Positions 2,830 to 52,184 of a DNA stretch of 52,602 bases are shown one piece after another. Under the pieces are notes generated by a model. That model did no database searches. It was not told where the DNA came from and was given only the letters and a program-made list of their open reading frames with translations. The DNA comes from a bacterium (GTDB lineage: Bacteria; Chloroflexota; Dormibacteria; Aeolococcales; Aeolococcaceae), in the NCBI GenBank assembly GCA_014874355.1, contig JACWAJ010000057.1, positions 1 through 52,602 on the forward strand, given 5' to 3'. The translations under genes and the position numbers were made by a program. Numbering within the stretch: position 1 is the stretch's first letter; each line of letters starts with the position of its first letter.

Positions 2830-3936
2830 ATGCTTGATTCACCTGACGAAATGGACACCCCCCCAAACTCCGAGGTTCCCAATCCCCCTGTCGAGCACGA
2901 TGCTGACGCGCCGGCGCCCGAGGCCGAAGTGCGTCCCAGTATCGATGACCTCCTTCCAGTCCTCCCCAAGGGCGACCCACTGTTTGCCAACATCCCCACG
3001 CGTGCGGTGGTCTTGGAAGAACTCGCTCCCGCACTCGGCGACGGCGCACTCGTAGTCTCGCGTGGCGATGAAGTGGGCGTGGTTCTAATTCGCGAACGCG
3101 TCCTTTTCGAGAACTATTGCTTCAGCAACACCGAGCGTCTGTACGGCAAGGTCGCCATGGATCGGATGAAGACCTGGGACGACGCCACTGTCTCCGCGTA
3201 CCGACTCGACCCCGAGATGGTGGACATCTGCCCGTCGCTGCTCCGCGGCGACTCGCTCTACAGCGACCTCCGCCTCGAATGGACGGATTGGAACCAGCTT
3301 CTCACCGAGCTTACCGGGCGCGATGGCAACTTCGTCGTCGAGGTGCGAACCTCCAAGGGGCGCGGCGTTACATGCATTGCCAACGGCAAGCAGATTGCGA
3401 CATTCACCGAAGCCCATCCAGAGTTGGGTCCACCCAGCCTTCTCGACACCTTGGCGGCGGTACGCGATGGCAGTGTCTGGGTGCACTCCGAGCCGCCCAG
3501 CCTCGAAGAACTGGAGGTTGTTACCCCGCCGTCTGACACGTCCCTGGATGCGGAGGACCGCGATTTCAAGAATCCCTTTGCCGCCGCTGCGGGAGGAACC
3601 GGGGAGAACGGCGCCGGCGAGGACTACGTCGACGACGAGTACACCAATCCCTTCGCCACGGTCTTCGGGCCCAACCCCAGCGAGACTGATTCGAGCGATA
3701 AGGTGAACCCCCCAATTCAGGAGTTGCTGCCCGAACTCAAGGCCATTGTGCACAACCGGCTGCAACGCTCTGCCGCTCGGGTCGAGGCGATGCTCGACGA
3801 TGCCTCTGAGGCTGACCGGCCGCTCGATGAGGTTCTCGACGAGATTCGCGGTCTCGTAATCCGTGGCATCATGCAGTCGACACTCGACGAACTCGTTGAC
3901 GAAATGCAGAGCCTCGCATCAAGTAGTACTGCCTGA
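2830..3936 (+). CDS. Conserved hypothetical acidic protein
   Basis: Long ORF with ATG start, divergent from the GGDEF gene; no family recognised. Confidence 0.6.
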   Translation: MLDSPDEMDTPPNSEVPNPPVEHDADAPAPEAEVRPSIDDLLPVLPKGDPLFANIPTRAVVLEELAPALGDGALVVSRGDEVGVVLIRERVLFENYCFSNTERLYGKVAMDRMKTWDDATVSAYRLDPEMVDICPSLLRGDSLYSDLRLEWTDWNQLLTELTGRDGNFVVEVRTSKGRGVTCIANGKQIATFTEAHPELGPPSLLDTLAAVRDGSVWVHSEPPSLEELEVVTPPSDTSLDAEDRDFKNPFAAAAGGTGENGAGEDYVDDEYTNPFATVFGPNPSETDSSDKVNPPIQELLPELKAIVHNRLQRSAARVEAMLDDASEADRPLDEVLDEIRGLVIRGIMQSTLDELVDEMQSLASSSTA

Positions 3937-4052: not shown

Positions 4053-5837
4053 CTACGAAGCCTGTTTATAGGAGACGTAGTCTGCGTTCTTGAAGAAGCG
4101 GCGTCGGGCAAGTTCGGAAAACTGCTTATCAAGGAACCACGGTCGAAGCCGTACGATTGTGGGCGGCTTGCCGCGGTACAGGACGATGCCGGTGCCGTCT
4201 TGCAACTGGCGGAGCGCGTCGGGAGTCGCCATCTGATCCTGACGCACGGAATACGAACGGTTGGTCTTGCCTTCGTTATGGCTGACGCTGACGTCGGTGT
4301 ACTCCTGCCGGCCGACCATCTTGGCAACGATTTCAGTCGTTTCTGGGTCGGAGATTCCGGGCAAAATGATTTTGCATGGGTGGTTGTTGAGGATCGAGTT
4401 AGCTTTGTCGTTGCCATAGCGGGCTCGCAACTGCGAGAAGTCCTGGACGATCGACATGAGGATGACACCACGCCCTCCACCCTGCGACGCCATCGACGGC
4501 AATTCCTCGATGGGCACGACATTGGCTAACTCGTCCAGGAAGAGACCTAACTCCGGGTCGAGCCGGCCTCGAGACATGAAGTTGGCCTTGCCGTAGGCGT
4601 GCGTGACGATGGTCATGAGAATTCCGACGAAGAGCGACGCGACACGTTCCGGTGACTGGCGTGGAGTGCAAAGGTAGAGCGTGCCACGCCGGTTGATGAA
4701 GTCCTCGGGGTTGAGTCTGGAAGTCATCGCCGACTTTGCCACCGGCCCTTCATTGAAGAGGTTGAAAAACCGTGAGACTGTCGAAAAGACCGTCCCCCGC
4801 TCCTTCTCGGGGCGCTGATCGATTCCCGTGAGCATGCTGATGGCGCGCTCAGGGTCGCTGTTTTCGGGATGCTCCTCCTCGGCGAGCATCTCCTGAAGAA
4901 TCGTCATGGGAGTATTGAGGTCGTACGACTGGACCCAGTTCTTGACATCGATGATGGAATGGGTGCCGGTCGACGCCGCCGTGTAAAGCAAGGGCGCGAT
5001 GAGCTGCTTGCCGGATTCCGCCCAGTGGGCCCAGTCGTTGTCGCCCTTGCCGCCACCCTGGTTCATTCCGGCGGTAAGCCACGCGCCAACCATGATTGCG
5101 TAGTCGAGTTTGTCGCAACCGCTGATCGGTGACCAGGTGACGGTTTGGTAGTTGTCGCTGATCTCACCGGTGGGGTCGTAAACGTAGACCGGTCCGACTG
5201 ACTGACGATAGCCACCGGTAATGTCGACCAACTCGCTTTTCGTCGATGTGACAATGGCGGCTCCGAACCACTCGAAGAGATTGGGGATGACCAACCCTGT
5301 GGTCTTGCCGGAACGGGTGGGGCCGATGACCAGTGTCGACACTTCACGTTCGGTTGCAATCAGTGTGGACCCGCGCCGACCGAGGATCATCCGGCCAGAC
5401 GACGGTCCGCTGACCTTCATGGACCGAAGGTCCATGAAGGTGGCCCACTTCGACGAGCGCTTGAGGTTCCTGGGTGCGAAGTAGCGCGATGCTCCGAAGC
5501 TCGGCATCCCCCCCTTCCAGAAGAGCATGAAGAAGGCGATGCCCCCCACCGTACCGACGATGAGGAAGATGATGAATCCCCAGAACAGGAAGTAGCTCAT
5601 GTCACCGAATGCGCCTACCAGGTGGGGCCATACGATCTGGCCACCGTCTTGGGTGTAATTGTCGGCCACATGGGTGAATATGTCGATGGGGCCGTAGGTT
5701 GGGTTGCCGCCGGCAACTTTCGCGGCCAGCCAGAGCAGGCTGAACGGAACCAGCCACATCGCTGCGATGGACCCGATCAGCATCAGATCGGCCTTGCTTT
5801 TCGCCGCGCTCCCGCGGGGCGACTGAGTCATGGCCAT
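4053..5837 (-). CDS. VirD4/TraG-type type IV coupling ATPase
   Basis: Two N-terminal TM segments; Walker A VIGPTRSGKTTGLVIPNLFEW; Walker B LGLFLDELANVVPIEELPSMASQGGGRGV. Confidence 0.9.
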   Translation of the reverse strand: MAMTQSPRGSAAKSKADLMLIGSIAAMWLVPFSLLWLAAKVAGGNPTYGPIDIFTHVADNYTQDGGQIVWPHLVGAFGDMSYFLFWGFIIFLIVGTVGGIAFFMLFWKGGMPSFGASRYFAPRNLKRSSKWATFMDLRSMKVSGPSSGRMILGRRGSTLIATEREVSTLVIGPTRSGKTTGLVIPNLFEWFGAAIVTSTKSELVDITGGYRQSVGPVYVYDPTGEISDNYQTVTWSPISGCDKLDYAIMVGAWLTAGMNQGGGKGDNDWAHWAESGKQLIAPLLYTAASTGTHSIIDVKNWVQSYDLNTPMTILQEMLAEEEHPENSDPERAISMLTGIDQRPEKERGTVFSTVSRFFNLFNEGPVAKSAMTSRLNPEDFINRRGTLYLCTPRQSPERVASLFVGILMTIVTHAYGKANFMSRGRLDPELGLFLDELANVVPIEELPSMASQGGGRGVILMSIVQDFSQLRARYGNDKANSILNNHPCKIILPGISDPETTEIVAKMVGRQEYTDVSVSHNEGKTNRSYSVRQDQMATPDALRQLQDGTGIVLYRGKPPTIVRLRPWFLDKQFSELARRRFFKNADYVSYKQAS

Positions 5838-5910
5838 GTTATGTACATACTAGGCTGTTCGAAGGGACAGGGAGCGGACAGTTTGACAGCCGGGCCAATG
5901 CAATGTCTCA

Positions 5911-6633
5911 TCATCGGCCCACCGGGAACGGGACCGGCACGATCCCGCCTTTGCCTGACGGAACCGCGATCTCGACAGTAAGACCATCGGTGTAGCGGCG
6001 TGTCCAGTGGCCGGTCTTCGTATCGAACGTGTCCGTACTCTTGAATGTGGGTTCGCTCGTGATGGGAGTTCCAATCCAGAATCGGCAGGTTTCGCTGCTG
6101 GGCGTGGTGCCGGTCGAGGGGGTCATATTGCACCAACCGGCCACGTTGTGATTGTGAGAGTACGTGGATGCGGTGGCCAGTGTGGTCGTGCCCGTCAATC
6201 CGTGAGCGGGTATGGGGACGATGACCATTGCGGCGTCGCCTACAAAAAGGCTGTCGGTCTGCCGGGTCAGCACACTGTTGCCAATGTGGATGGACGAGCC
6301 TTCGGGGGTGATGTAGACGGACACGGCTTGTTGCGTCCATGACAGGTAGGCTCCCGCAACAGCGGCGAGAAGACCTATCCAAGTCAAGATGCCAGGGCTG
6401 TATCGACGCCACCACTTGCGTGCGGCGTGCGGACGTCGCTTCTGGCGAAACGAGCGCAATCCACCGAGCGGCAGCGGCAGGTTTTGGGGCGTCCGATCGA
6501 TGAGGGCGCGTTTGGCGGGGTCGGAGATCTTCCCGGGGAGAGCGCCTTCTGCGTCAGCGCGTGTCTCGGCCTCGGTGTTGCGCGAATCAGACCGTGCCGG
6601 CAGGCGGACGCGAGGCTTTTCTCGGGCGAACAT
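5911..6633 (-). CDS. Single-pass membrane protein of the Tad/VirD4 operon
   Basis: Basic N-terminus, TM GILTWIGLLAAVAGAYLSW, extracytoplasmic-looking C-terminus; ends abut the next ORF. Confidence 0.6.
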   Translation of the reverse strand: MFAREKPRVRLPARSDSRNTEAETRADAEGALPGKISDPAKRALIDRTPQNLPLPLGGLRSFRQKRRPHAARKWWRRYSPGILTWIGLLAAVAGAYLSWTQQAVSVYITPEGSSIHIGNSVLTRQTDSLFVGDAAMVIVPIPAHGLTGTTTLATASTYSHNHNVAGWCNMTPSTGTTPSSETCRFWIGTPITSEPTFKSTDTFDTKTGHWTRRYTDGLTVEIAVPSGKGGIVPVPFPVGR

Positions 6634-7112
6634 CAGTCGGGACGGGCGACCGGGACCAGGGTGTAGTCGTTAACACCCCGGCAACTGGGGTCGATGATGA
6701 GCGTCAATAACATGCGTCGCTTACCAGTTGAGACGAACTCACCCTCGGCCGTTTCTCTCACTGACTGGTCGTCAAACTCGATGTGGGCGTGGATCGGGCG
6801 ATCGAACGCCAGCAGGTTGCCCTCGACACGTAACTCTCCGTATTCCCCGAAGTTAGGGCGCATGGCATCGCCGCTGGCCAGGAACGGTTCCAGGCTGCCG
6901 CGCAGCCGCGCTGCGGCCTGGGCGGTTACGTAGCTTTCCAACTCGACGGGATGACCGGCAATGAGTAGGGCCAAGTCGTACGTGAAACGCTCTGCCAACT
7001 GCCGGATCTGATCGAGCCGTTGTTCTCGAATCTCGTCATTGGACGGTCCGATCTGCTCGCTGGCGGGCTTCTTCTTCCCGAATATCGGTGCCATAAAAGT
7101 GAATTGACTCAC
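6633..7112 (-). CDS. Uncharacterised protein, 'PNFG' family; paralogue of the 51405-52184 product
   Basis: YDLALLIAGHPVELESYVTAQ...MRPNFGEY...DRPIHAHIEFDDQSVR...KRRM aligns with the 51405-52184 product. Confidence 0.65.
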   Translation of the reverse strand: MSQFTFMAPIFGKKKPASEQIGPSNDEIREQRLDQIRQLAERFTYDLALLIAGHPVELESYVTAQAAARLRGSLEPFLASGDAMRPNFGEYGELRVEGNLLAFDRPIHAHIEFDDQSVRETAEGEFVSTGKRRMLLTLIIDPSCRGVNDYTLVPVARPD

Positions 7113-9043
7113 GTCCTGGCCCGCGGCGGGACCCGGACGATGACCTCGGTGAGTTGGTGGTAGGCCGCTTTTAGCGTTGACGACACCTGTTCCACAGGCA
7201 CCCCCTCCATGCCCGCAAAGCGCACCTTGTCGGCCTCGTCGGGGATGTTGACGATGCTGTGGACGCGTCCGCGGATCTCCGTGAGGTATCGCTGGGTCAC
7301 GGGATGCTCGCGATTCTTCTTGACCTTCGGAATGATGTAGGGGACTACGGTCGGAGGCAGGCCGTGGACATCGAGGTAGTCCAGCACGCCATTGAAATCC
7401 TGCTTCGAGGATGTCGTGGGCAGAACCAGGACGTCGGCGTGCTCCAGCCAGTACGCGGCAACCGCCGCCTCGGGTCCAGCCATGGGGTCAGGTAACCGGT
7501 TGCTCATGTCGACGACAATGAATGCGAAGCGGCGGCGCAGATAGTCGGCGAGTCGCTTGATGTCCGTCTTGGAATACTCGGTCGTCTCCCGGGACTCGGG
7601 GTAGACGGCAAGTGCCGGGGTGGTCGAGTGAATGGGCGGCGGCGGCTCATGGTTGGTCGTCAGTGCTGCGACAGTCTCGCGAACGGTTGCAGCGCCTTCG
7701 CGAAGGTTCATCTGACCCCAGGCATCGGGATTGGCGATGTTGGCATCAACGATGGCGGCCTTGTGTCCCACCGTGTCCAGGAGGGTACCCGCCACAACTG
7801 CAATACCTGCGGCGTAGCTGGTCTTGCCGACACCGCCCTTTCGGGATCCCATGACGACGATGGTGGGAGCACGATCTACGATCAGGTTGGCAAGTTCCCG
7901 AGGCGGGGTCTCTACGAAGCCGCCTCGGGACCCTCGCTTGCCAAGCAGCGAGAGGTTGGGCAGTGAGATCTTGGGTACTTTGGCCCGGTTCTTGCGTCCG
8001 CGTCCAGAGGAAACCTCAACAGGTGCGGAATAACCGGCCTGAGGGCGTGTGGTCGCCGGTTCCGAACTGCTGTCGCGCTCCGAAGCAGGCCACGCCGCCT
8101 TGGGTTTCTCATCGATAAGGCTCGGCAGTGGCGTCTCGAACAGCTCGGCTCGCGGCGTTGAGTGCGGGGCTGGCCGGCTGGCTTTCACGGCGCCACCACT
8201 GCTACTGGACATAAGGTCGAAAGGGTGAGCCGTGGTGGTTTCGACGGATTTCTTGCGTGGCGCGACCGGGGTCGGCCCGCTGCCGGGTCCGAACCCACCC
8301 TGCCTGGCCTCTTGTGGTTCGCCGAATGGCGATGGTCCGCCTCCGAGGGCACTGGCAAAGCTGTCGAAGGGATTGGCAGCTTCCGCTGGGACTTCCACAG
8401 GCGGCACAGAAGTGGTTGGCTGCGGTTCGAACTGTGACGGTGAGGGTCCCGGGTCGGGGATTGGTCGTGGCGGTGGCGCAGCCGTCGGTGCCGTTGCCGA
8501 ATCTCCGAAGTCGAAGGCGCTGTCGCTCAGATCGATGGGGAAGTCAGAACTGAGGGCCGCCATGCGCAGCGCCTCGCCCTCGTCGAAGATGATCCCGCTG
8601 CTGCCGTTTCCGCCGGAGAAGTCGCGCATGATCACCGACGCAAAGTCGAGAGGGCCGCCCGAAAGGAACGTCTTGATTTGTGCCGAACTGCCGTACTGAT
8701 CCGCGACACCCGGATTGGGCATTCCGATGTAGAAGGTTCCGTCAACGCCTTTGATCCAGTCGTCGAGAGAGTTCTCGTGGTCGAGAAGGTAGATCGGAAG
8801 CGCATTGCCTTTGATGTTGGCGGCCCACCACTGGTCGAGGCGTGCCTGGCTGGCTTCATCGGCGAAGAAGTCGACACCTCGTACCGGCGGAGCCACGAAG
8901 TACGAAGGCGTTGTGGCATGCGGCAGGCGAACATCTTCCAGAAGACGTGCCAAGCCGGTGGCATCGTCGCTGTCACGCAGCAAGATTACGAACGCGTAGC
9001 CTCCTTCATCGAGATTCGGCAAGCTGCTGTGCCTCCGCAACAT
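7109..9043 (-). CDS. Multidomain protein with C-terminal MinD/ParA-type ATPase
   Basis: Novel N-terminal region, Pro-rich linker, then VVMGSRKGGVGKTSYAAGIAVVAG deviant Walker A and FIVVDMSNRLPDP. Start trimmed to MLRRHSSLPNLDEGG. Confidence 0.8.
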   Translation of the reverse strand: MLRRHSSLPNLDEGGYAFVILLRDSDDATGLARLLEDVRLPHATTPSYFVAPPVRGVDFFADEASQARLDQWWAANIKGNALPIYLLDHENSLDDWIKGVDGTFYIGMPNPGVADQYGSSAQIKTFLSGGPLDFASVIMRDFSGGNGSSGIIFDEGEALRMAALSSDFPIDLSDSAFDFGDSATAPTAAPPPRPIPDPGPSPSQFEPQPTTSVPPVEVPAEAANPFDSFASALGGGPSPFGEPQEARQGGFGPGSGPTPVAPRKKSVETTTAHPFDLMSSSSGGAVKASRPAPHSTPRAELFETPLPSLIDEKPKAAWPASERDSSSEPATTRPQAGYSAPVEVSSGRGRKNRAKVPKISLPNLSLLGKRGSRGGFVETPPRELANLIVDRAPTIVVMGSRKGGVGKTSYAAGIAVVAGTLLDTVGHKAAIVDANIANPDAWGQMNLREGAATVRETVAALTTNHEPPPPIHSTTPALAVYPESRETTEYSKTDIKRLADYLRRRFAFIVVDMSNRLPDPMAGPEAAVAAYWLEHADVLVLPTTSSKQDFNGVLDYLDVHGLPPTVVPYIIPKVKKNREHPVTQRYLTEIRGRVHSIVNIPDEADKVRFAGMEGVPVEQVSSTLKAAYHQLTEVIVRVPPRART

Positions 9044-9398
9044 GTTGCGCTTGGGTGCCGCAGCACATCGAGTAGCCGGTGCCCGAGTGATGGAGCGTGC
9101 CCACACCCAAGAGTACTGCGCCGGCGGCGACAAACATGGTGGCGCGGGCCCAGCGGCGGTGAACCATCTGAGCCTCCGTTGCAGCCGTGACGGAAAGGGC
9201 GATGCTTGTGATGGCAACCATGACGATGACGGACCAGCACACCAACACGGCTACCGCCAGAGCCGCTTGCTCCGTCGGGAAATTGCCGAAGAGGTACTGT
9301 GAGGCAAGCTTCCAGTCGGGCATGCCAAGGCTTACCGCGGCGGCCACGACCAAAATCGTGGTCATGACGAGGCTAGGTAGTACGCGGCGCAGCTTCAT
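9006..9398 (-). CDS. Small multi-pass membrane protein
   Basis: Hydrophobic segments; within the operon. Confidence 0.55.
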   Translation of the reverse strand: MKLRRVLPSLVMTTILVVAAAVSLGMPDWKLASQYLFGNFPTEQAALAVAVLVCWSVIVMVAITSIALSVTAATEAQMVHRRWARATMFVAAGAVLLGVGTLHHSGTGYSMCCGTQAQHVAEAQQLAESR

Positions 9399-9414
9399 TA
9401 CGATAATTCCTCGC

Positions 9415-10374
9415 TCAGGAGCTTCCCAATCCTGAGGTGATGGCGGAGGCGGCCGGTGCGCCTATGAGCAGCAGCAGTGGGATTAGCATGCCTGCAACAG
9501 GGAGGGTAACAAGGATCTTGGCGCGTGCGGCCCTCATCTTGGCCTCGGCCAGGCGCTGCTGATAGATTGTTTTGGAGAGGCGGGTGAAAGTATCCCGCTC
9601 GCCAAGGCCGACGTTGGCATTGGCTGCGGCGTCGGCGACCATGCTGAACACGGGCATGTCATAGGCTTCAGAAATGAGCCGGTACAGTTCCACTGTGTTG
9701 TGATGCGGCGTCTTGATGATCTGTCGGTAGGCTCGGCGGTCGACTATGTACTCAAGATCGTTAGTGTCGACACACCGCGACAGGATACGAACGGCGTCTT
9801 CAAGTTGAAGGCCGCGACTGTCCGTCATTATCGAAACCAGCATCATCATGTCGCCAAGCGCCTTGCTTGCGTTCTCCCGCCGCTTCTTCACCTTGCTTCT
9901 CAAGTCGGTAATGACAGCCAGAATCGTCAGTATTCCGACGCCAAAGGCGGCGACCGGGGGCAGGCCGAACAGCCATTCCCCGCTTCGTGCATGTACAAAG
10001 ACGTCGATGGCCAGACAACCGGCCGTGGTGACTCCCCCAAGCAGCACGGCCCTAGCCAGGAACCCCAGCGGACTTGCATTCTTCCCGGCTATCGCGAGGA
10101 AGCGAGCTAGGTCGAGCTCGTCCTGGAGCCGGCGGATCAAAGACGAACCTGAGGCGAGTTTTTCCAGCCGGCCACGCGGTGTGGCATAACCGCGGAGTGC
10201 GGCGAGACGCCGCCAAGCCCGGACGTCGTTGGGCGTGAAGGCGTCCATCCAAGCAAAGAGTCCGGCCCAGAAGGCTACTAACAGCACTACGGCTCCAGCA
10301 TATGGGAGGAGACTAGCCACCGATATGCTCCTGCTGCTCGGCGAGTTTGCGTAGATTCCATCTCGTCCAGCCAC
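9415..10374 (-). CDS. TadC-like / type II secretion F-family membrane protein
   Basis: C-terminal GLGERDTFTRLSKTIYQQRLAEAKMRAARAKILVTLPVAGMLIPLLLLIGAPA typical of TadC; position next to TadB and CpaF. Confidence 0.75.
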   Translation of the reverse strand: MAGRDGIYANSPSSRSISVASLLPYAGAVVLLVAFWAGLFAWMDAFTPNDVRAWRRLAALRGYATPRGRLEKLASGSSLIRRLQDELDLARFLAIAGKNASPLGFLARAVLLGGVTTAGCLAIDVFVHARSGEWLFGLPPVAAFGVGILTILAVITDLRSKVKKRRENASKALGDMMMLVSIMTDSRGLQLEDAVRILSRCVDTNDLEYIVDRRAYRQIIKTPHHNTVELYRLISEAYDMPVFSMVADAAANANVGLGERDTFTRLSKTIYQQRLAEAKMRAARAKILVTLPVAGMLIPLLLLIGAPAASAITSGLGSS

Positions 10375-11206
10375 GTGTCTTGACGATTAAGCCGAGCAAC
10401 CAAACGAGGACGCTAAAAATGCCAATTACGCTGAGCAGAACGATGTTGCCCGTCCAGGTCTGGTAGTAGGTGCGGAAGGTGTCGACGCGCAAAATCATGA
10501 CAAGCATGAATACCATCAGCCCCGACATGGCCATGGTCACGGCGCGTTGTTGGGTCAATGTGACCATGGACTCTTCCTCTACCTCCAACTGGGCGACTCC
10601 GATAGGCAGAAGAATGGTGTCGATCGATTCGATGAGTGCGTCGAGGCTGCGACTGCGTGCCCAAATCAACACTCCGCAAGCATATTCGACCACGGGTGAT
10701 CGCGACCGCTGACCAGCCTCTACGATGTTGGCTACGATCGATCCGCCTTGTGCCAGGGGCGCCAGGACATGCTTGAGATCCTTGCCAGGATTGCGACCGA
10801 TTTCCTGGAGTGCAGTGTCGAGAGATTGATTGCTGACCGCCATGCGGTCGCGAAGATCGCGTAGTCGTTCCAGAAAAGCCCGCTCCATTTTGATCCGGCG
10901 CGACGCCGAGCGTCCGGCGAGCAGGAAGCCCGAGGCCAACCAACCAATGAAAGGTCCGGCTATGTAGAGCAGGGCAATGTTGGACGAGAAGGCCAGGAGT
11001 TCACATGCGACACAGCAGCCTATACGAAAGGCAAGCCAGTACTTCCAGGGCCAACCAAGTCCTGCGGCGATGTCCTTCTGTGCTTCCAATCCGGGGAAGT
11101 TGCGTTCGCGAGACGGGATGCTGGTTCGCAACCTGCCCCAGTCGACCAAACACGCAGCAACACCGAGACCGCCGAGCAGCATGACGATGAATAGGACGAG
11201 GATCAT
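10313..11206 (-). CDS. TadB-like / type II secretion F-family membrane protein
   Basis: ATGA-coupled to cpaF; membrane topology and RLRDLRDRMAVSNQSLDTALQEIGRNPGKDLKHVLAPLAQGG. Confidence 0.7.
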   Translation of the reverse strand: MILVLFIVMLLGGLGVAACLVDWGRLRTSIPSRERNFPGLEAQKDIAAGLGWPWKYWLAFRIGCCVACELLAFSSNIALLYIAGPFIGWLASGFLLAGRSASRRIKMERAFLERLRDLRDRMAVSNQSLDTALQEIGRNPGKDLKHVLAPLAQGGSIVANIVEAGQRSRSPVVEYACGVLIWARSRSLDALIESIDTILLPIGVAQLEVEEESMVTLTQQRAVTMAMSGLMVFMLVMILRVDTFRTYYQTWTGNIVLLSVIGIFSVLVWLLGLIVKTRGWTRWNLRKLAEQQEHIGG

Positions 11207-12600
11207 GGAAGCGGAATCTCGTCGCTCCAGAGGAATGGGCGAATCCGCGGAGCCAGCCTCTGGAGGTTGCCCACCAACTCGGTCATCCTTTCCCAGCCTC
11301 CGGAATCGGTCTGCCGGTAGACCCACTTGTGATTGCCGCCCCGTTCGACGGCGAGGATCCCTGTGAGGCGCCGCTTGCCTTCTTGATTGGCCAGGTGGAT
11401 GACGACGTGAATCGCCTGTTCGACGACACGCTTGGCCATCTTCTCGTTGCCGGAGAACCGGCGGTTCTCCATGACGTATTGCATGGCCTGGTCGACGGCG
11501 AGTTCGGCATCCTCAGCGTGAATAGTAGTCATCGAACCATCATGGCCTGTCATCAGCGCCTTACAGACGGCCGCCATCTCTTCCCCGCGAGACTCTCCCA
11601 GGATAATGCGGTCCGGCTGGAAGCGCAGAGCGTGCCGAACCAACTCGAACATGGATAGATGTTGGGCATCGGCATCAGAGCGGATGGACGGGATCGTAGA
11701 TATTGCCGAGGTGAGCGAGTGCCACGGCGTTCCATCACCACGATCTTGGTCCAGGTGGAGTTCGGCGCCATCCTCGACGACAACGAGGTGGTCGGACTCG
11801 CTGACCATGCCGGCGAGCACGCGCAGCAGGGTCGTCTTGCCGGTGGATGTCCCTCCGGCGACCATGATGTTGGCCCGGCCTCGTACCAAGGCTTCGATGA
11901 ACTTGGCTGTGGCATCGGGCATCACATGGCTGGACACGTAGTCGTCGAGCGTGCGGACCTTGAACCGAGCCGGCACGCGGATTGCGGCCTTGAGCCCGGC
12001 TTGACCCGAAACAGCAGGCTTCTTGGCGATGCACACGCGAATCACCGCGCCGACGTTGGCTTCGGCAATGGGCATGGCATCGGTGACCGACTGGTCGCCG
12101 GTGACGCCACGCAGGCGAATCACCTTGCGAAAGAACTCGATGCACTCATCGTCATTGTGGTACGGGCTGTTGCCGACCAGCGACAGCTTGCGGCCGACGG
12201 TCGACACGAGCCAGTGGTCGTATCCGAGGCATGTGATGTTCTCGAGATCGGCGCCGTAGATGAGCAGTGAAAGCGGGTATAGGTGCGACGCGAGAATCAC
12301 GGCATTGCGTTTGGCAATCTCGCGATATTGTGCGTTGACGGCAAGTTCGGACACCACGGCCAGCGGCAAGCCCGAGGTTTGCGGCGATTCGATGGCGCGG
12401 GTAATGACCCGGTTGACGTCGTCAAAGAGACGTTCTTCGTGTGCTACCGAGGCCGGTTCTCCGCCGCGCATCTGGGCGACCTTGTCGGCGAGAATCTGCG
12501 CGACATCATGCTCCTCGGCCGGAATCGACGGCCAGGGGCTTACCGGGACGTTACTGGGATCGGAGGCGGCGGGGCGCGTGGGGACGGTGGTGGCGCTCAC
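11203..12600 (-). CDS. cpaF: CpaF/TadA-family secretion ATPase
   Basis: GRANIMVAGGTSTGKTTLLRVLAG Walker A; DRIILGESRGEEMAAVCKALMTGHDGSMTTIHAEDA. Confidence 0.92.
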   Translation of the reverse strand: MSATTVPTRPAASDPSNVPVSPWPSIPAEEHDVAQILADKVAQMRGGEPASVAHEERLFDDVNRVITRAIESPQTSGLPLAVVSELAVNAQYREIAKRNAVILASHLYPLSLLIYGADLENITCLGYDHWLVSTVGRKLSLVGNSPYHNDDECIEFFRKVIRLRGVTGDQSVTDAMPIAEANVGAVIRVCIAKKPAVSGQAGLKAAIRVPARFKVRTLDDYVSSHVMPDATAKFIEALVRGRANIMVAGGTSTGKTTLLRVLAGMVSESDHLVVVEDGAELHLDQDRGDGTPWHSLTSAISTIPSIRSDADAQHLSMFELVRHALRFQPDRIILGESRGEEMAAVCKALMTGHDGSMTTIHAEDAELAVDQAMQYVMENRRFSGNEKMAKRVVEQAIHVVIHLANQEGKRRLTGILAVERGGNHKWVYRQTDSGGWERMTELVGNLQRLAPRIRPFLWSDEIPLP

Positions 12601-13313
12601 AGGTTCAGATCCTTACCAATGCCGGGCAATGTCATGGGAACGCCGCTGTCCCCCATTCGCGTGGCCTTGCGCTCGTCCCAAAGCCAGATGTCGCGGACCG
12701 GAAGGTCCGGGAGTTCACGCTCAATGCTCTCGATGATTTCCTTCTTCATCGCCCGACTGCGCTGGTGGCAGATGATGATCTCGCCATGGGGTGGACGCGC
12801 CACACGCAACACATTGATGCTGCGCGAGATCAGCGATGGGTCATCACGGATGACCACGAAAGCCCGGTGAAAGACTGCGCAAATTGCCTCGGCTCCGGCA
12901 CGCGGCGAGCGCAAGCCCGGATGAGACAGCGGGTGACCAAGATCGGCAATCGTGATCTCGAATTCGTGGTCGCTTAGGCCTTCGAAGGCGGGCTGCAGTT
13001 TGCGAAGGCTGTCCGAGATCTCGTACCCGTAGCTGCTCTGCAAGCCTGGAACTACCGACAGGTTGGGTCGTTGGGGGACGACCAGGGCCTGGTCCGCCAA
13101 CTCGTCAGGCATTGCCGGTCGATCTCCGAAGCAGTTGCCGATGCTGCGATCATCGTTCTTCAGATAGAGGGTGTCGGCGATCGTGCCACCCTCCATGTCA
13201 CAGTCCACCAGCATGACGCGGCGTGTCTCCGCCAGCGTCCATGCCAGCGACGTCGCCCAGTAGGACGACGTCTGACCGGCCCGAGTCGTGTAGACGGCGA
13301 TTAAGGTGCCCAT
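12597..13313 (-). CDS. CpaE/TadZ-like MinD-fold protein with degenerate P-loop
   Basis: MGTLIAVYTTRAGQTSSYWATSLAWTLAETRRVMLVDCDMEGGTIADTLYL has MinD layout without KGGxGKT lysines. Confidence 0.7.
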   Translation of the reverse strand: MGTLIAVYTTRAGQTSSYWATSLAWTLAETRRVMLVDCDMEGGTIADTLYLKNDDRSIGNCFGDRPAMPDELADQALVVPQRPNLSVVPGLQSSYGYEISDSLRKLQPAFEGLSDHEFEITIADLGHPLSHPGLRSPRAGAEAICAVFHRAFVVIRDDPSLISRSINVLRVARPPHGEIIICHQRSRAMKKEIIESIERELPDLPVRDIWLWDERKATRMGDSGVPMTLPGIGKDLNL

Positions 13314-13315
13314 GA

Positions 13316-14026
13316 CTACGGGGTCGACGTGCTGGTGGGCACGGGCTGCGCTGAAGGTGAGCCGGACCCCTGCTGCGTGGTTGAATCCGAGCCGAGGAAG
13401 GCGGCCAGGCTGGAGATGTCGGTGTACTGAAGTACTGGAACAGGACCCGCAATCGTCTTGACCACGAAGACCTGCAGTTTCGAGGTGGTGTTGGGGGGAA
13501 TGTGCATCCATCCGGAGCTAAGCAGCACGGGCACCAGAACGGTCAAGGATCCCGGCGCCACCGATTGCACCCGAATGGCGTGGGCCGCTCGCTGTGGTGG
13601 GATGAGAGCTGGGCATGAAGCATCGGGGGTCGTGCCCGAAGCGCAACCCATCCAAAGGTAGACGTCGATCAGATCGCCAGGTGCCACCGCCGGGGTGCCG
13701 GAGATTGTGAGGGTGAGGGGGACGTTCTGATTGAGCGGGATGAGGTCGTCGTCACGCACGATGTCGCCTTTCTTCAGGCTGTCCGCAAACTGGAGCGAGC
13801 CGTCGGGAGACTTGCTTGTGAAAGTGAAGTCACTCTGGGCGCCTCTGAGTTGGGTCTCCTCGACCACGGGCTTGTCAAACGCCGCCCCGGCGTTGACGTT
13901 GTCCTTGACCCTCCATACGTGGAAGGTTTGCGAAGCGTTTTTGCTGGCCACCAAGAGGAGGCCGATCAGTGCGGCGACGATGACGATGCTGAAAAAACTA
14001 ATGGCGATCACACGGCGCCTGTCCAT
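13316..14026 (-). CDS. CpaB/RcpC-like (SAF-domain type) pilus assembly protein
   Basis: N-terminal TM, NVNAGAAFDKPVVEETQL...KKGDIVRDDDLIPL, then VAPGDLIDVYLWM; adjacent to the cpaE-like gene. Confidence 0.65.
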   Translation of the reverse strand: MDRRRVIAISFFSIVIVAALIGLLLVASKNASQTFHVWRVKDNVNAGAAFDKPVVEETQLRGAQSDFTFTSKSPDGSLQFADSLKKGDIVRDDDLIPLNQNVPLTLTISGTPAVAPGDLIDVYLWMGCASGTTPDASCPALIPPQRAAHAIRVQSVAPGSLTVLVPVLLSSGWMHIPPNTTSKLQVFVVKTIAGPVPVLQYTDISSLAAFLGSDSTTQQGSGSPSAQPVPTSTSTP

Positions 14027-14184
14027 TATGCCTCCTCCGCTAGTCCAACATGCCCTGCGGGCAACGATTCTTGAAATGCCACAACAGCTTCCTTTACGAC
14101 AACTTTCAATGGTGTTGGTCGTTCAAACCGGTGATTTCGAGGGGATCATACCAAGAGTGCCAAGCGCATCCAGGGCGCATTCGA

Positions 14185-14934
14185 TCAGCCTTGCAGCAGG
14201 CCGAGCGGCTGCTGACGCTGGGGGAGTGCAGCGACGGGGACATCTTGCCCGTAGGGTGGGTGCCAGTAGAGGGCCACTACTTCAACTCGGGAAATCGAAG
14301 CCGGGCGACGGAGATGTGCTTCGAGGGTGCGGTGAAGTGCCCGGCGTTGCCGGAAGGGACGGCGCAGCCGTACGCCAACACCGCCGAGAGACGAGGCCAG
14401 GCGAATCGCCACCTGTCCGGGATCCGGGCCGATGGCAAACGCCGATAGCGAGACAAGGAACTGCAGGTTGGGCATGGATCGCAGCGTCAACCCGAGGCCG
14501 GCCATGGTCTGCGAATCGATGTTGGCCAGTGCGTTGTAGGCTCCTCGGAGCGGATCGGTTCGCTGCCAGCCGAATGTCTGGCTCTCGAGAGCCAGGTTGC
14601 GCTCGGTCGGGATCATATTGACGAGTGCCACATCTTCGGCGACATCAATCATCTGCGAGATGACCCAGCCGGGCTCAACCGTGCCACCACAATGATCGGC
14701 GATGGTCGAGGCCGCGATGTCTTCGACATAGGCTTGTTGACAGTGAACGCCGAGCATCACGCGCTCACCGCGCAGCCCCAGCAGATAGAGGCCCAGCGCA
14801 CGTCCCGACGTCAACTGCCACAGGTCAGCGACAAGGCGCTCGGCGTCGGCCGGTGTAGGTATCGGGTAGGCTTCGACAAGATGCATCTGGCTCAGGTTAA
14901 CCTTATCTGGCAACGAAGGACATTTGACGGACAA
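14185..14934 (-). CDS. Uncharacterised protein; may correspond to the N-terminal domain of conjugative HerA/TraG-like ATPases
   Basis: C-terminal SRVEVVALYWHPPYG resembles the (E)xxxLxHxP segment preceding the ATPase domain in such proteins; no P-loop here. Start may be 14886. Confidence 0.4.
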   Translation of the reverse strand: MSVKCPSLPDKVNLSQMHLVEAYPIPTPADAERLVADLWQLTSGRALGLYLLGLRGERVMLGVHCQQAYVEDIAASTIADHCGGTVEPGWVISQMIDVAEDVALVNMIPTERNLALESQTFGWQRTDPLRGAYNALANIDSQTMAGLGLTLRSMPNLQFLVSLSAFAIGPDPGQVAIRLASSLGGVGVRLRRPFRQRRALHRTLEAHLRRPASISRVEVVALYWHPPYGQDVPVAALPQRQQPLGLLQG

Positions 14935-28188: not shown

Positions 28189-28239
28189 ATGACTACGCAG
28201 TTGTTCAACTCTGTTTGGGGAGCACGGCATCATGGGTGA
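28189..28239 (+). CDS. Putative 16-aa leader peptide overlapping the ferredoxin-subunit start
   Basis: [26 protein letters not shown] upstream; stop lies just inside the 28232 gene. Confidence 0.35.
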
Positions 28240-29209
28240 ATTGCAACCCGAGGGCGCTACCGAGCCAACTCAGGAGGTTGATGAGTCGGCCAGCCGCCGC
28301 GACTTCATCGCCAAGGTCGGATCGGCGGTTTTTGGCGGCGTCGTGCTCGCCGGCATCGGCCTCGCCCAGCGCGGTGCCACCGATGTCCTGGCCACCGGCG
28401 TGGCGTCGGCGACAGATGGACCGGCGCCGCCATTCCATATCGCCACCCAGGCCAGCGAGGACGTCCTCATCAAGATGCAGCGTGAACTGAGCCGCGCTCT
28501 GGCCAAGACGATGGATCAGCGCCGCTGGGGCATGGTCATCGACACGCGCAAATGCATCGGCTGTTCGGCCTGCACCGTCGGCTGCGTCATGGAAAACAAG
28601 CTGCCACCGGGAGTCGTGTACAGGCCGGTCCTCCAGACCGAGGTGGGCACCTACCCCGATGTGACGCGCAAGTTCATCCCGCGTCCCTGCATGCATTGCG
28701 ACAACCCACCATGCGTGCCAGTCTGCCCGGTGGGTGCAACCGGAAAGCGGTCCGACGGCATCGTCTACATCGACTACGACCGTTGTATCGGCTGCCGCTA
28801 CTGCATCACCGCCTGCCCCTACCAGGCGCGAACCTTCGACTTCGGCGGCAAGTGGACCGATGGCGCGGCTGGAGGCTCGGACGGCGCCCTGGCGCTGGAG
28901 TCCGGGCGGGAGTACCAGGATCCGCCCAACTTCGAGTACGGAGAATCGTGGACCCGGCCCCGCGACGGGGTGCTGGCCGGCACCGCGCCCCACAGCCCCA
29001 TCGGCAATGCCCGCAAGTGCCACTTCTGTGCCCATCGGCTTGCCGAGGGAATGCTGCCGATGTGTGTGAGCACCTGTGTCGGCCGCGCCACGTTCTTCGG
29101 CGATCTCAATGACCCCGAATCATTGGTTTCGGAACTGGCGGCCGGCGCCAATGCCACCCGTCTCAAGGAAGACATGGGCACCGAACCCAAGGTCTACTAC
29201 CTCGCATGA
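28232..29209 (+). CDS. 4Fe-4S ferredoxin-type electron transfer subunit (TtrB/PsrB-like)
   Basis: [10 protein letters not shown] Tat-like motif; [45 protein letters not shown]. Confidence 0.92.
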
Positions 29210-30462
29210 GGAGCCAGCAAATCGTGAAGCGCGCAATTCTCTGGACACTCTGGATCTGCATCGCCGTTGTCGGCGGCATCGGCATCGTGGAGCGCTTGAT
29301 ATCCGGTCATGACCTGGCCGGCTACACCAGCTACGTCCCGTGGGGGCTATGGGTAGCCACCTACATCTACTTCATCGGCCTCTCGGCCGGAGCGTTCCTG
29401 CTCTCGAGCATGGTGTACGTCTTCAAAGTGCGCCGCCTGGAGCGAATAGCCAAGCTGTCGCTGTTCGTTGCCGTGATCACCCTGGTGATGGCACTGCTGA
29501 CCATCCTCTTCGACATCGGTCACATGGAGCGGTTCTTCTTCGTCTACATCCATCCCCAGTTCCACTCGATGATGGCCTGGATGGTGTGGCTGTACACCGC
29601 CTACTTCCTGCTGTTGCTCGGCGAAATGTACTTCGCGCTCCGGCGCGACGTCGTCGCCGCGGCTACAGACGGCGGTTCGGGCCACCGGGTGGTGTCGTTC
29701 CTGGCGCGCGGCCGCACCAAGCCGCTCTCGACTGCCGAGGTCGAGCGTGACGACCGGGCGCTGCGTGTCCTGGGAACCATTGGGGTGCCGCTGGCCATCG
29801 CCTTCCACGGCGGCGTTGGCGCCCTTTTCGGAACCGTGGCGGCGCGGGTTGTCTGGCACAGCCCGATCTATCCCATCCTGTTCCTCACCGGTGCGCTGGT
29901 ATCCGGTGGCGCGCTCATGACCTTCGTGGTTGCATTCCTGTGGCCGCGGCGCGACCGTGACTGGCGTGAGCTGATCGTCTATCTCGGCCGCATCGTGCTC
30001 GGCCTGGTGCTGCTCGACGTCCTCCTGGAATGGGCCGAGTACTCCATCCCGCTCTGGTACGGCGTGGGATCCGAGGTGGAACAACTCAAGAACATGCTCT
30101 TCGGCTCTTACTGGTATGTTTTCTGGATATTCCACGTCGCCATGGGCGTGATCATTCCGGTCTACCTGCTGGTCCGCTACCGCGGTCCGCGGGTGATCGG
30201 AGTGGCATCGGCGCTGGTGGCCGCCAGCTACCTGGCCGTGCGCCTCAACCTGGTCATCCCGGGATTGGTGACGCCCGAACTCAAGGGTCTGGAAACCGCA
30301 TACCTCAGTGACCGGCTGAGCTACACATACTTGCCGACACTGTTCGAGTGGCAGGTGGTCATCGGGGTCGCCGCCCTGGGGACGGCGCTGTTCTACCTCG
30401 GATACCGACACCTGCCTCTGGTCCGTGAGAGCGGCACAGGCATTGGGGGGATCGCGTCATGA
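29206..30462 (+). CDS. NrfD/PsrC/TtrC-type membrane subunit
   Basis: [29 protein letters not shown] and multiple TM segments; coupled to neighbours. Confidence 0.9.
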
Positions 30463-33400
30463 GAGTCACGCGCCGTACCGCGCTCAAGATGGGGGCGGGG
30501 ACAGGAGGTGCAGCGCTGCTGGGCCCGGCGGGCCTGCAAATTCTCAACCTCATCGGCGAGACCGGCGAGGCGGCATCACCATACGAACTGGCGAGGCCCG
30601 AGAACATCGTTCCCGCGCTCTGCCTCCAGTGCAACACGCAATGCACACTGAAGGTGAAGATCCAGAACGGGCTAGCCGTCAAGCTCGACGGCAATGCCTA
30701 CAGCCCCTTGAACCTGCAGCCGCAGCTTGGCTACGACACTTCTCTGGCCGATGCCGCCAAGGTCGACGGCGCGATCTGCTCCAAGGGGCAGGCCGGCATC
30801 CAAACCCAGTACGACCCGTACCGCCTGCGCAAGGTACTCAAGCGCGCCGGCCCTCGGGGCAGCGGTAAGTGGAAGACGATCTCGTTCGACCAGGCCGTTG
30901 CCGAGATCGTGGACGGTGGCAAGCTGTTCGCCGACGCCGGTGAGGCACGAGACGTTGCCGGGTTCAAGGATGTGTTCGTGCTCCGCGATGCCAAGGCCGC
31001 CAAGGCTATGGCCGCCGACGTCGACAACATCCGTGCCGGGAAGATGACGGTCGCCAATTTTGCCAGCGCCCACGCCGCCAATCTCGACACCCTCATTGAT
31101 CCCAAGCATCCCGACTTCGGTCCCAAGAACAACCAGTTCGTGTTCATGGGCGGCCGGGTGGCGCCGGACCGCGAGTTCTACGCGCAGCGCTTCACCAACG
31201 GTGGCCTGGGCTCGGCCAACTGGTTTGCCCATACCACCATCTGCGAGCAGGCCCACCATGTGGCCTTCCAGTACGCCACCGCGCAGTGGGTGGCCGATCC
31301 TGTCACCGGCCAGTTTAGCTGGTCCAAGGACAAGGCCATCAACCACATGAAGCCCGACTACACCAAGTCGGAGTTCGTGATCTTCTGGGGAACCGGAGCT
31401 TTCGAGGCCAACTTCGGACCGCCCTCGCTGGCCCCGCAGATCACCCAGGCGCTGGTTGACGGTGGCCTCAAGATTGCCGTCATCGACCCCCGTCTCTCCA
31501 AGACCGCGGCCAAGGGTTGGTGGATACCCGTCAAGGCGGGCGGCTCGGCCGACAACGCCCTGGCCATGGGCATGATCCGCTGGATCATCGAGAACAACCG
31601 CTACACCGAGAGCTTCCTGCGCCCGGCCAACAAGGCCGCGGCGGTGGCGGCGAAAGAGCCGTCTTGGACCAACTCGACCTGGCTGGTCAACACCGCCAAC
31701 GGCGCGCTGGTGCGCGCCGCCGATGTTGTTGCCGGCAGCAGCAAGGATCACTTCGTGGCCTCGGTCAACGGTGTGCTCACCGAGGTGGATCCCGACGATG
31801 CCACCAACGCCTTGGTCGGCGACCTCGACGTCACCACCACCGCCAACGGTCTCAACCTAAAGACCGGCTTCACCCTGCTCAAGGAGGCCGCCTTCGCGCA
31901 GACGCTCGACCAGTACGCCAAGACCAGCGGTGTGGGGCTTAAGACCCTAGTCAACCTGGCCACGGAGTTCACCAGCCATGGACGGCGGGCGGCGATTGAC
32001 TTCTATCGTGGCCCGATCAAGTACTCCAACGGCTACTACACCGCCCAGGCCATCATCCTGCTCAACGCACTGATCGGAAACATCGATCACCAGGGCGGCC
32101 TCATCGCCGGCGGCGGCGGCTGGGATGCCAAGGGTGCCAAGCCCGGCCAGCCCTTCCCCATGGCCAAGCTGCACAACGGAGCGCTGACGCCGTTCGGCGT
32201 CAAGCTCACCCGGGAAGCCAGTGGTGCGTATGAGAAGTCGACGCTGTTCGCCAAGGATGGCTACCCGGCCAAGCGGCCGTGGTTCCCCTTCACCTCGGAT
32301 GTCTACCAGGAGATCATCCCGGCAGCCAACGCCGGCTATCCCTATCCGGTCAAGATCCTCTGGCTGCACTACGGCACGCCGGCCTACGCCAATCCCTCAG
32401 GCCATCTGCAGATCGAGATGCTGCAGGACACCCAAAAGATTCCGCTCTTCATTGCCACCGACATCGTCATCGGCGAGTCGAGCATGTATGCGGACTACAT
32501 CTTCCCCGACCTGGCCTATCTGGAGCGCTGGGGCAATCCGCTCGGCACCAGCCCGGTTACAATGACCAAGCTGACCAAGCTGCGTCAGCCGGCGGTGGCT
32601 CCGGTACCCGAGATCGTCAAGGTAGGCGGCGAGGCCATGCCCATCGGCATGGATTCACTGATGCTGGCCATCGCTCAGCGCCTCGGCGCGCCCGGCTACG
32701 GCAAGTCGGGCTTCGCCCCGGGCCAGGACTTCCAACGGCCCGAGGATCTCTATCTCAAGATGGTCGCCAATGTGGCGTGGGGCGACCAGGCCGGCGACGC
32801 TGCGGCCGACGCCGACGATGCGGAACTCGCGGTCTTCAGCCGCAGCCGCCGCCATCTGCCGCCGGCGGTGTTCGACGCAGGCAAATGGAAGGCGGCGGTG
32901 GGTGACGCCAACTGGCGCCGGGTCGTCTACGTGCTCAACCGCGGCGGGCGTTTCGAAGCCGCGGCCAAGGCCTACCAGGGCGACGCCATCGGTCATCCCT
33001 GGGGCAAGCTGTTCAACCTTTACGTCGAGAACGTCGGCAAAGGCAGGCATTCCATCACTGGCAAACAGCTATCGGGGGTTCCGATTTCCCAGTCCCTGCA
33101 ACACTTCGACGGCACCCCGCTGGTGTTCCCCGCGGAGTATGACCTCAGCCTCATTACCTACAAGGAGATCTTTGGCGGGCAATCGCGCACGGTTGGTAAC
33201 TACGCGGGTCAACTGGCGTTGATGCCCGAGAACTTCGTGGTCCTCAACTCCGTTGATGCCATGCGCCTGGGGCTGTCCGATGGCGACCTGGTCAAGGTTA
33301 CATCACCATCGTTCAGTGGCGAGTTCAACGTCGGCCCTGGCCAGGAAGTGATGAAGGTGCAGGGCAAGATCAAGACCATTGAGGGCCTGCGCCCCGGCAC

Positions 33401-33617
33401 GGTCATGATCTCTTCGCACTACGGTCATTGGGCCTATGGATCGCGCGATGTCGTGATCGATGGCACCACCATCAACGGCGAGGCTCGCCGCGCCAAGGGC
33501 CTGGCCCCCAACGCGGTGATGGCGGTCGACGCCTATCTCAAGGACCTATGCGTAACCGACCCGATCGCCGGAGACTCCGCGTTCTTCGGAACGGGAGTGC
33601 GACTAGTCAAAGTGTGA
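30459..33617 (+). CDS. Molybdopterin oxidoreductase catalytic subunit (DMSO reductase superfamily, tetrathionate reductase-like)
   Basis: Tat signal [46 protein letters not shown]...GAICSKGQAGIQTQYDPYRL; B-C-A order as in ttrBCA. Confidence 0.85.
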   Translation: MRVTRRTALKMGAGTGGAALLGPAGLQILNLIGETGEAASPYELARPENIVPALCLQCNTQCTLKVKIQNGLAVKLDGNAYSPLNLQPQLGYDTSLADAAKVDGAICSKGQAGIQTQYDPYRLRKVLKRAGPRGSGKWKTISFDQAVAEIVDGGKLFADAGEARDVAGFKDVFVLRDAKAAKAMAADVDNIRAGKMTVANFASAHAANLDTLIDPKHPDFGPKNNQFVFMGGRVAPDREFYAQRFTNGGLGSANWFAHTTICEQAHHVAFQYATAQWVADPVTGQFSWSKDKAINHMKPDYTKSEFVIFWGTGAFEANFGPPSLAPQITQALVDGGLKIAVIDPRLSKTAAKGWWIPVKAGGSADNALAMGMIRWIIENNRYTESFLRPANKAAAVAAKEPSWTNSTWLVNTANGALVRAADVVAGSSKDHFVASVNGVLTEVDPDDATNALVGDLDVTTTANGLNLKTGFTLLKEAAFAQTLDQYAKTSGVGLKTLVNLATEFTSHGRRAAIDFYRGPIKYSNGYYTAQAIILLNALIGNIDHQGGLIAGGGGWDAKGAKPGQPFPMAKLHNGALTPFGVKLTREASGAYEKSTLFAKDGYPAKRPWFPFTSDVYQEIIPAANAGYPYPVKILWLHYGTPAYANPSGHLQIEMLQDTQKIPLFIATDIVIGESSMYADYIFPDLAYLERWGNPLGTSPVTMTKLTKLRQPAVAPVPEIVKVGGEAMPIGMDSLMLAIAQRLGAPGYGKSGFAPGQDFQRPEDLYLKMVANVAWGDQAGDAAADADDAELAVFSRSRRHLPPAVFDAGKWKAAVGDANWRRVVYVLNRGGRFEAAAKAYQGDAIGHPWGKLFNLYVENVGKGRHSITGKQLSGVPISQSLQHFDGTPLVFPAEYDLSLITYKEIFGGQSRTVGNYAGQLALMPENFVVLNSVDAMRLGLSDGDLVKVTSPSFSGEFNVGPGQEVMKVQGKIKTIEGLRPGTVMISSHYGHWAYGSRDVVIDGTTINGEARRAKGLAPNAVMAVDAYLKDLCVTDPIAGDSAFFGTGVRLVKV

Positions 33618-51404: not shown

Positions 51405-52184
51405 ATGATGACCCCACGCGAAGCGACGCCGACCCCACCCAGCGACGAATCGTCGCCTGAGCCGGTTGACTTCGACCAGATGCCAACTACCCATGAAACA
51501 AGCTCTCCAACCGTCTCTCTGCGATCGGGGATCACTCCCGGAACTGTCCTCATGCTCGTTGTCCTCATCGTTGCAGGCGAGGGCTGGGTCGTGCAGACCT
51601 ATGTTGTCGGAGGCAATGTGGTCACCGGTGCGCTCACCGGTACGGGCATTCTCGTCGTCGGCATCGCAGCTCTCTGGTGGGTGAGGGCATTCCAATGGCT
51701 CCGCAGCCACCCACATGGACGGAAGCGGTCGAAGAAATCGAAGGTGTCTGCGACTCCGGGCTCTCGCGACAGCAAGCCGAGCGCCAGCGACATGCAGGCC
51801 GATTACCGGCGCGTCGCAACGGTTCGCATCAATGAACTGATCGAAGAACTCATTTACGATTATGGTCGGTTGCTGGCAGGCTATCAGCCCGATCTTGAAT
51901 ACGTCTCCCCGCAGGTGGCCACGATGATGGCTCAAGCTGTTGCGCCCATCCGTCGCTCTGGCGCACGGATCAAGCCCAATTTCGGCAGTTACGTAGACGT
52001 TGACATCGACTGGAGTTCATCCGACGTGCATCGACCGGTGACGGCTACAGCAACCTTTGTGGATACGTCGACCCGCATCGGGGAAGGTGGCCTTGGCGTG
52101 CAGATGCCCCGGCGCAATGTGCACTTCACCGTTGCATTCGACCACTCGTTCAGCCGGATCATCGACGCCAGTATCGAGCCGTAG
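51405..52184 (+). CDS. Membrane-anchored 'PNFG' family protein; paralogue of 6633-7112
   Basis: TM segments then YDYGRLLAGYQPDLEYVSPQ...IKPNFGSY...HRPVTATATFVDTSTRIGEGG...RRNVHF. Confidence 0.65.
   Translation: MMTPREATPTPPSDESSPEPVDFDQMPTTHETSSPTVSLRSGITPGTVLMLVVLIVAGEGWVVQTYVVGGNVVTGALTGTGILVVGIAALWWVRAFQWLRSHPHGRKRSKKSKVSATPGSRDSKPSASDMQADYRRVATVRINELIEELIYDYGRLLAGYQPDLEYVSPQVATMMAQAVAPIRRSGARIKPNFGSYVDVDIDWSSSDVHRPVTATATFVDTSTRIGEGGLGVQMPRRNVHFTVAFDHSFSRIIDASIEP

Follow-up and report, generated by a model that had tools for sequence, protein, structure and literature searches.

The window analysed here (the whole 52,602-nucleotide stretch, contig JACWAJ010000057.1) is one entire contig, C42, of G000, a metagenome-assembled genome (MAG) from the uncultured phylum Dormibacterota; G000 comprises 1.45 Mb in 76 contigs and is 98.8% complete. 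Eleven minus-strand genes, running from position 14886 down to 4053, make up an operon for a Tad-type assembly machine that ends in a gene for a VirD4/TraG-type coupling ATPase. The named relatives of this last gene are mostly from MAGs of Candidatus Dormibacterota, including Ca. Aeolococcus gillhamiae. Working from the first gene of the operon to the last, and adding the convergent gene c4, which was counted as part of the locus, the features are:

14185-14886, minus strand: g1, 233 amino acids, family not recognised; found only in the window subclade (G000, G021, G022, and G001)
13316-14026, minus strand: CpaB/RcpC-like, membrane-anchored protein, assigned by position and homologues, one of which has a SAF domain over the cut-off
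12597-13313, minus strand: CpaE/TadZ-like protein with a weak TIGR03815 match and a degenerate P-loop, TTRAGQTS (Q in place of K)
11203-12600, minus strand: CpaF/TadA assembly ATPase (PF00437, T2SSE, 2e-29; TIGR03819, 3e-38, under the curated cut-off)
10313-11206, minus strand: divergent TadB-like membrane platform protein, assigned by a match to the TadB of a standard locus and by operon position
9415-10320, minus strand: divergent TadC-like membrane platform protein (PF00482, match to the standard TadC, profile A7)
9006-9398, minus strand: small membrane protein, family not recognised, kept across module copies
7109-9022, minus strand: TadZ/MinD-like fusion (minD_arch 1e-7, ParA 5e-4), kept in homologous operons
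6633-7094, minus strand: "PNFG" protein with a predicted NTF2/Tim44-like fold (AlphaFold pLDDT 91; Foldseek)
5911-6633, minus strand: single-pass membrane protein with one transmembrane (TM) helix and a beta-rich ectodomain
4053-5837, minus strand: VirD4/TraG-type coupling ATPase (PF02534, 5e-48; alignment; PDB relatives Cag5 and TrwB)
2851-3936, plus strand: c4, 361 amino acids, the convergent partner facing VirD4, with no Pfam family

All of the gene types named in the original prediction are present in one tight, co-directional string. The open reading frame (ORF) at 14185-14934 had been taken for CpaB, but it encodes the extra protein g1, and CpaB is the next gene. For CpaE, TadB, TadC, and the MinD fusion, the mechanical ORF starts were too long. 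The intergenic gaps between cpaB and the single-pass gene are, in order, 2, -4, -4, -8, 16, -17, -4, and -1 bp; six of these eight junctions are overlaps of 1 to 17 bp, and the spacing is operon-like. The VirD4 gene starts 73 bp past the single-pass gene (gap 5838-5910), and a scan for promoters and terminators gave no signal above that of shuffled sequences. Sigma factor- and glutamyl-tRNA synthetase-like genes flank the operon on one side and a GGDEF protein gene on the other, and the operon was treated as chromosomal because neither an integrase nor a relaxase was recognised near it. An assembly artefact or a broken conjugative module was ruled out by the housekeeping-type genes around the operon on a single 52.6-kb contig and by the recurrence of the arrangement in other genomes.

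The motifs of both the assembly and the coupling ATPase are intact. CpaF has the Walker A sequence GGTSTGKT and qualifies as a Tad ATPase; VirD4 (T4SS-DNA_transf) has Walker A GPTRSGKT and Walker B LFLDE and, by its Pfam match, is a coupling ATPase of the kind found in conjugative type IV secretion systems (T4SSs). The degenerate P-loop of CpaE is kept throughout the clade, and the MinD fusion consists of an N-terminal region, a low-complexity linker, and an ATPase domain with a canonical KGGVGKT. CpaB-like and CpaE/TadZ-like accessory proteins are thus represented, judging by the SAF domain in the CpaB homologue, the weak TIGR03815 match, and the MinD-like fusion. Neither CpaB nor TadB had a Pfam match of its own. 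The alignment of TadB with its counterpart in the genome's standard Tad locus is collinear over 223 columns (E 7.5e-4), and TadC matched T2SSF at 6e-4, below the curated cut-off, and the standard TadC at E 6e-6; both platform proteins are assigned to the T2SSF fold, and both are divergent. In Foldseek searches, the PNFG model matched Tim44 (TM score 0.63) and, more weakly, the VirB8-type CagV (0.49); the predicted fold resembles both VirB8-type domains and Tim44 and is therefore not discriminating. The ectodomain of the single-pass protein has two invariant Cys residues, and its C-terminal tail (PFPVGR-like) is conserved; a fold search of this protein against the PDB gave nothing significant.

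Searches covered 32 genomes of the family and 110 of the class. The order cpaB-cpaE-cpaF-tadB-tadC-small membrane protein-MinD fusion-(PNFG)-single-pass is conserved in two families of the class, with CpaF identity falling to 35-45%, and from these sequence comparisons is not a matter of chance. CpaF and the module TadC co-occur in an identical set of 15 of the 32 family genomes. The genome of the window contains the whole module a second time, as a diverged copy (contig C12, 1-9561; CpaF identity 48%) with three pilin genes in front; its contig stops just past the single-pass gene, where VirD4 would be expected. Two further loci of this genome are Tad-related. The standard Tad locus (C23, 2215-4562) has two adjacent CpaF genes on opposite strands, adjoined upstream by a large c4 homologue, and an orphan CpaF-like ATPase of 35% identity (C38, 7956-9335) is preceded by a family-less 341-amino-acid protein, with no TadB or TadC recognised nearby.

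The operon region yielded no pilin, prepilin peptidase, VirB4, or relaxase in searches that did not include the major Flp pilin (PF04964), and to that extent the original prediction stood. It did not hold genome-wide, where pilins, a peptidase, and VirB4-type ATPases were all found. Outgroup copies of the module (the C12 copy and those of genus g14 and family f4) have two to three TadE/TadF-type genes immediately before cpaB, a position at which the window clade has none; over the Pfam cut-off, one protein of the C12 set matches TadE and one of the C76 set matches Tad. This C76 set is an unlinked cassette of three adjacent genes in the same order, detected in the genome of the window with a profile of the second pilin (A6), and the same profile detected unlinked cassettes of the same order in G011, G013, G014, G016, G020, G021, G023, and G024. 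More TadE genes lie on contigs C1 and C69, and a single A24 prepilin peptidase gene is on C31. The absence of pilins thus holds for the operon only; pilins sit elsewhere in the genome. Because these cassettes exist, we regard the locus as a divergent Tad machine with dispersed parts, and a distinct pilin-less machine, as first proposed, was ruled out. From their placement across the relatives, the TadE/TadF cassettes appear to be an ancestral part of the machine, and the C76 pilins would, by gene order and ancestry, serve the operon of the window.

Close orthologues of the window VirD4 (about 44-70% identity) were present in 13 of the 32 family genomes. G021 has the complete operon with VirD4 in the arrangement of the window, and in G023 the two are separated by two genes. 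VirD4 comes after the MinD-PNFG-single-pass part in G019 and is oriented towards it in G026. In genus g14, each of the five operon copies with context carries, behind its single-pass gene, a VirD4 different from that of the window. The tree splits the two groups of Tad-adjacent VirD4 proteins, and the approximately unbiased (AU) test rejects a single clade (p-AU 0.0019). As the tree has long branches, this is good but not final evidence that VirD4 was recruited twice to the same 3' slot. The predicted linkage of VirD4 to a Tad-type platform is therefore borne out by its recurrence in other genera and in two clades: VirD4 is a real occupant of the operon's 3' end in several genera, but it is not core. 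The repeated recruitment in turn suggests functional coupling to the Tad machine.

We slightly favour the view that the locus encodes a chromosomal, lineage-specific, and divergent form of the Dormibacterota Tad (type IVc pilus) assembly machine, to which VirD4 was added. Several observations weigh against it. VirD4 is intact in G019 and G026 without CpaF or TadC, both VirD4 and the module are present but unlinked in G001, G018, and G020, and VirD4 occurs without the machine in seven genomes. Conversely, VirD4 was not detected in six of the 15 family genomes with the machine (G011-G014, G022, and G024). Over the 32 family genomes, VirD4 and module presence are uncorrelated (Fisher p = 1.0), and VirD4 is thus not the defining part that it had been taken for. 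The unlinked pilin triad is also found in module-less genomes (e.g., G002) and may serve other Tad machines.

The absence of a correlation would suit VirD4 being the remnant of a decayed conjugative element that came to lie beside the Tad operon by chance, without any joint function. So would the VirD4-type proteins of class members in another family, which sit with relaxase and integrase genes, and the interruption of VirD4 in G003 and G028, both of which lack the module. These two interruptions could, however, reflect dependence of VirD4 on the module, and sequence error is possible; a presumed minD fragment adjoining VirD4 in G028 was not confirmed. We consider a chance remnant quite unlikely, given that two independent VirD4 clades occupy the same position in the same orientation, that VirD4 is kept over several genera with its motifs intact, and that no integrase or relaxase was seen near the VirD4 of the window. 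The c4 gene is a further argument, as it links VirD4 to the module: its homologues adjoin VirD4 in seven other genomes, lie at the 3' end of the module in four that have no detected VirD4, and include the one beside the CpaF genes of the standard Tad locus on C23. This placement ties VirD4, c4, and the Tad module together as parts of a single ancestral locus, even if c4 homologues in the wider sense are widespread (85 of the 110 class genomes at E 1e-12). A weak, below-cut-off match to DUF4388/PATAN was seen only in the larger C23 homologue, and no such assignment of c4 is claimed.

Among the operon proteins there is no VirB4-type ATPase, and a genome-wide AAA_10 search gave no match on the window contig; the VirB4-like proteins of this genome are on C45 and C59. 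Pfam recognised no relaxase among the operon proteins, the MOB families not having been searched genome-wide. The C59 locus is a compact conjugative-type T4SS with a coupling protein, a T4SS pilin, Replic_Relax, and a lytic transglycosylase-like gene, and adjoins two DNA methyltransferase-like genes. The C45 locus is a chromosomal-looking T4SS with VirB4-like and SCO6880/EccE-like ATPases, two TrbL/VirB6 proteins, a pilin, and M23 peptidase-like and SSB-like genes. No coupling protein was present in the stretches read of either the C45 T4SS or its chromosomal orthologue in G021 (VirB4 identity 83%).

In the main rival reading, the VirD4 of the window would act as coupling protein for a dispersed T4SS of conjugative type in the same genome (C45) and would merely be the neighbour of an ordinary Tad operon. 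Its plasmid relatives are chiefly actinobacterial coupling proteins of the VirD4 family (e.g., that of Streptomyces pSGE, about 24-28% identity), and on pSGE the VirD4 gene lies directly after SCO6880- and VirB4-like T4SS genes, none of which was recognised beside the VirD4 of the window. Moreover, a C45-type T4SS is present in each of the three genomes that gave the best full-length matches to VirD4 (G000, G021, and G001). Nevertheless, 10 of the 13 family genomes with a close VirD4 have no close match to this T4SS, the g14 genomes with a Tad-adjacent VirD4 gave none either, and VirD4 and the C45 T4SS are not associated (Fisher p = 1.0). The T4SS of G001 also has its own distant VirD4 homologue adjoining (22% identity), and a Tad-adjacent VirD4 apparently arose twice. 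A C45 coupling protein is therefore, in our judgment, an unlikely explanation.

A literature search, which did not extend to subscription papers, turned up no account of a Tad operon with VirD4 at its end. The nearest relatives of the operon are actinobacterial Tad/Flp clusters (TIGR03815 Ssd/CpaE, TIGR03819 TadA), which have CpaE-, CpaF-, TadB-, and TadC-like genes with TadE/TadF minor pilins and can likewise be spread over two loci and include a cluster without TadV, as in Micrococcus luteus (PMC4322843). However, the CpaE and CpaF of the window score far under the curated cut-offs, and the window adds the MinD fusion, the NTF2/Tim44-fold protein, the single-pass protein, and the 3' VirD4. 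On the Cutibacterium acnes plasmids p15.1.R1 and pIMPLE-HL096PA1, a tad locus also lies beside DNA-transfer genes on one replicon, but the genes next to it encode an FtsK-domain protein, VirB4, and a TcpC-like protein (PMC5696575), whereas in the window VirD4 directly follows a chromosomal Tad operon. The Kil killing apparatus of Myxococcus similarly pairs a Tad-like platform with a second secretion-type complex; its partner is a needleless type III secretion system rather than VirD4 (PMC8460266, PMC12075869). The split tad loci of M. luteus (tad-1/tad-2) are needed for transformation (PMC4322843).

The Tad machine of the window could also be a DNA-uptake pilus, as in M. luteus, with VirD4 pulling or handling the incoming DNA. 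VirD4-type ATPases do move DNA, but coupling proteins of this type export it in known systems. Such a competence function seems very unlikely to us, even though M. luteus transformation requires both of its separate, TadV-less tad clusters (PMC4322843).

In the Tad variant that we favour, CpaF would power the TadB/TadC platform, which would assemble three TadE/TadF-type pilins into a short filament or pseudopilus. The pilins would be supplied from a separate cassette (C76 in the genome of the window) and processed by the one A24 peptidase, whose gene lies elsewhere. A hexameric ATPase of VirD4 type would have joined the 3' end of the operon in several genera, at least twice independently, and would most likely sit at the base of the same machine, loading or pumping a DNA or protein substrate, with the pilins acting as a piston or channel guide. 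That the platform is "fed by" the coupling ATPase, as first proposed, is plausible, and the repeated addition of VirD4 hints that this Tad machine may handle DNA or protein cargo. It is possible, but doubtful, that a Tad filament machine was repeatedly made into a cargo translocator in this way, VirD4 docking on the TadC/NTF2-like base and exporting DNA or protein through or along the TadE/TadF pseudopilus, with neither VirB4 nor a T4SS channel involved. If VirD4 does feed the Tad platform, type IV filaments and type IV secretion, which are treated as separate, would share a working interface, and DNA or effector transfer would be a candidate function of the Tad clusters of uncultured soil bacteria. 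If it does not, seemingly pilin-less Tad operons can keep their pilins in a detached cassette, which bears on how such loci are annotated.

The first gene of the operon, g1, gave no match in Pfam or PDB searches but shows many invariant residues across the four genomes that carry it; profile comparison gave no support for g1 being the N-terminal domain of a T4SS ATPase. A second PNFG-domain protein (51405-52184, plus strand; 96.7 bits to the PNFG profile) lies at the opposite end of the contig and is adjoined by a dxs-like gene; its PNFG domain is fused behind hydrophobic segments resembling two TM helices. Finally, a row of genes at 28232-33617 (plus strand) encodes an Fe-S protein, NrfD, and a 1052-amino-acid molybdopterin oxidoreductase, with molybdopterin-synthesis-like genes nearby.

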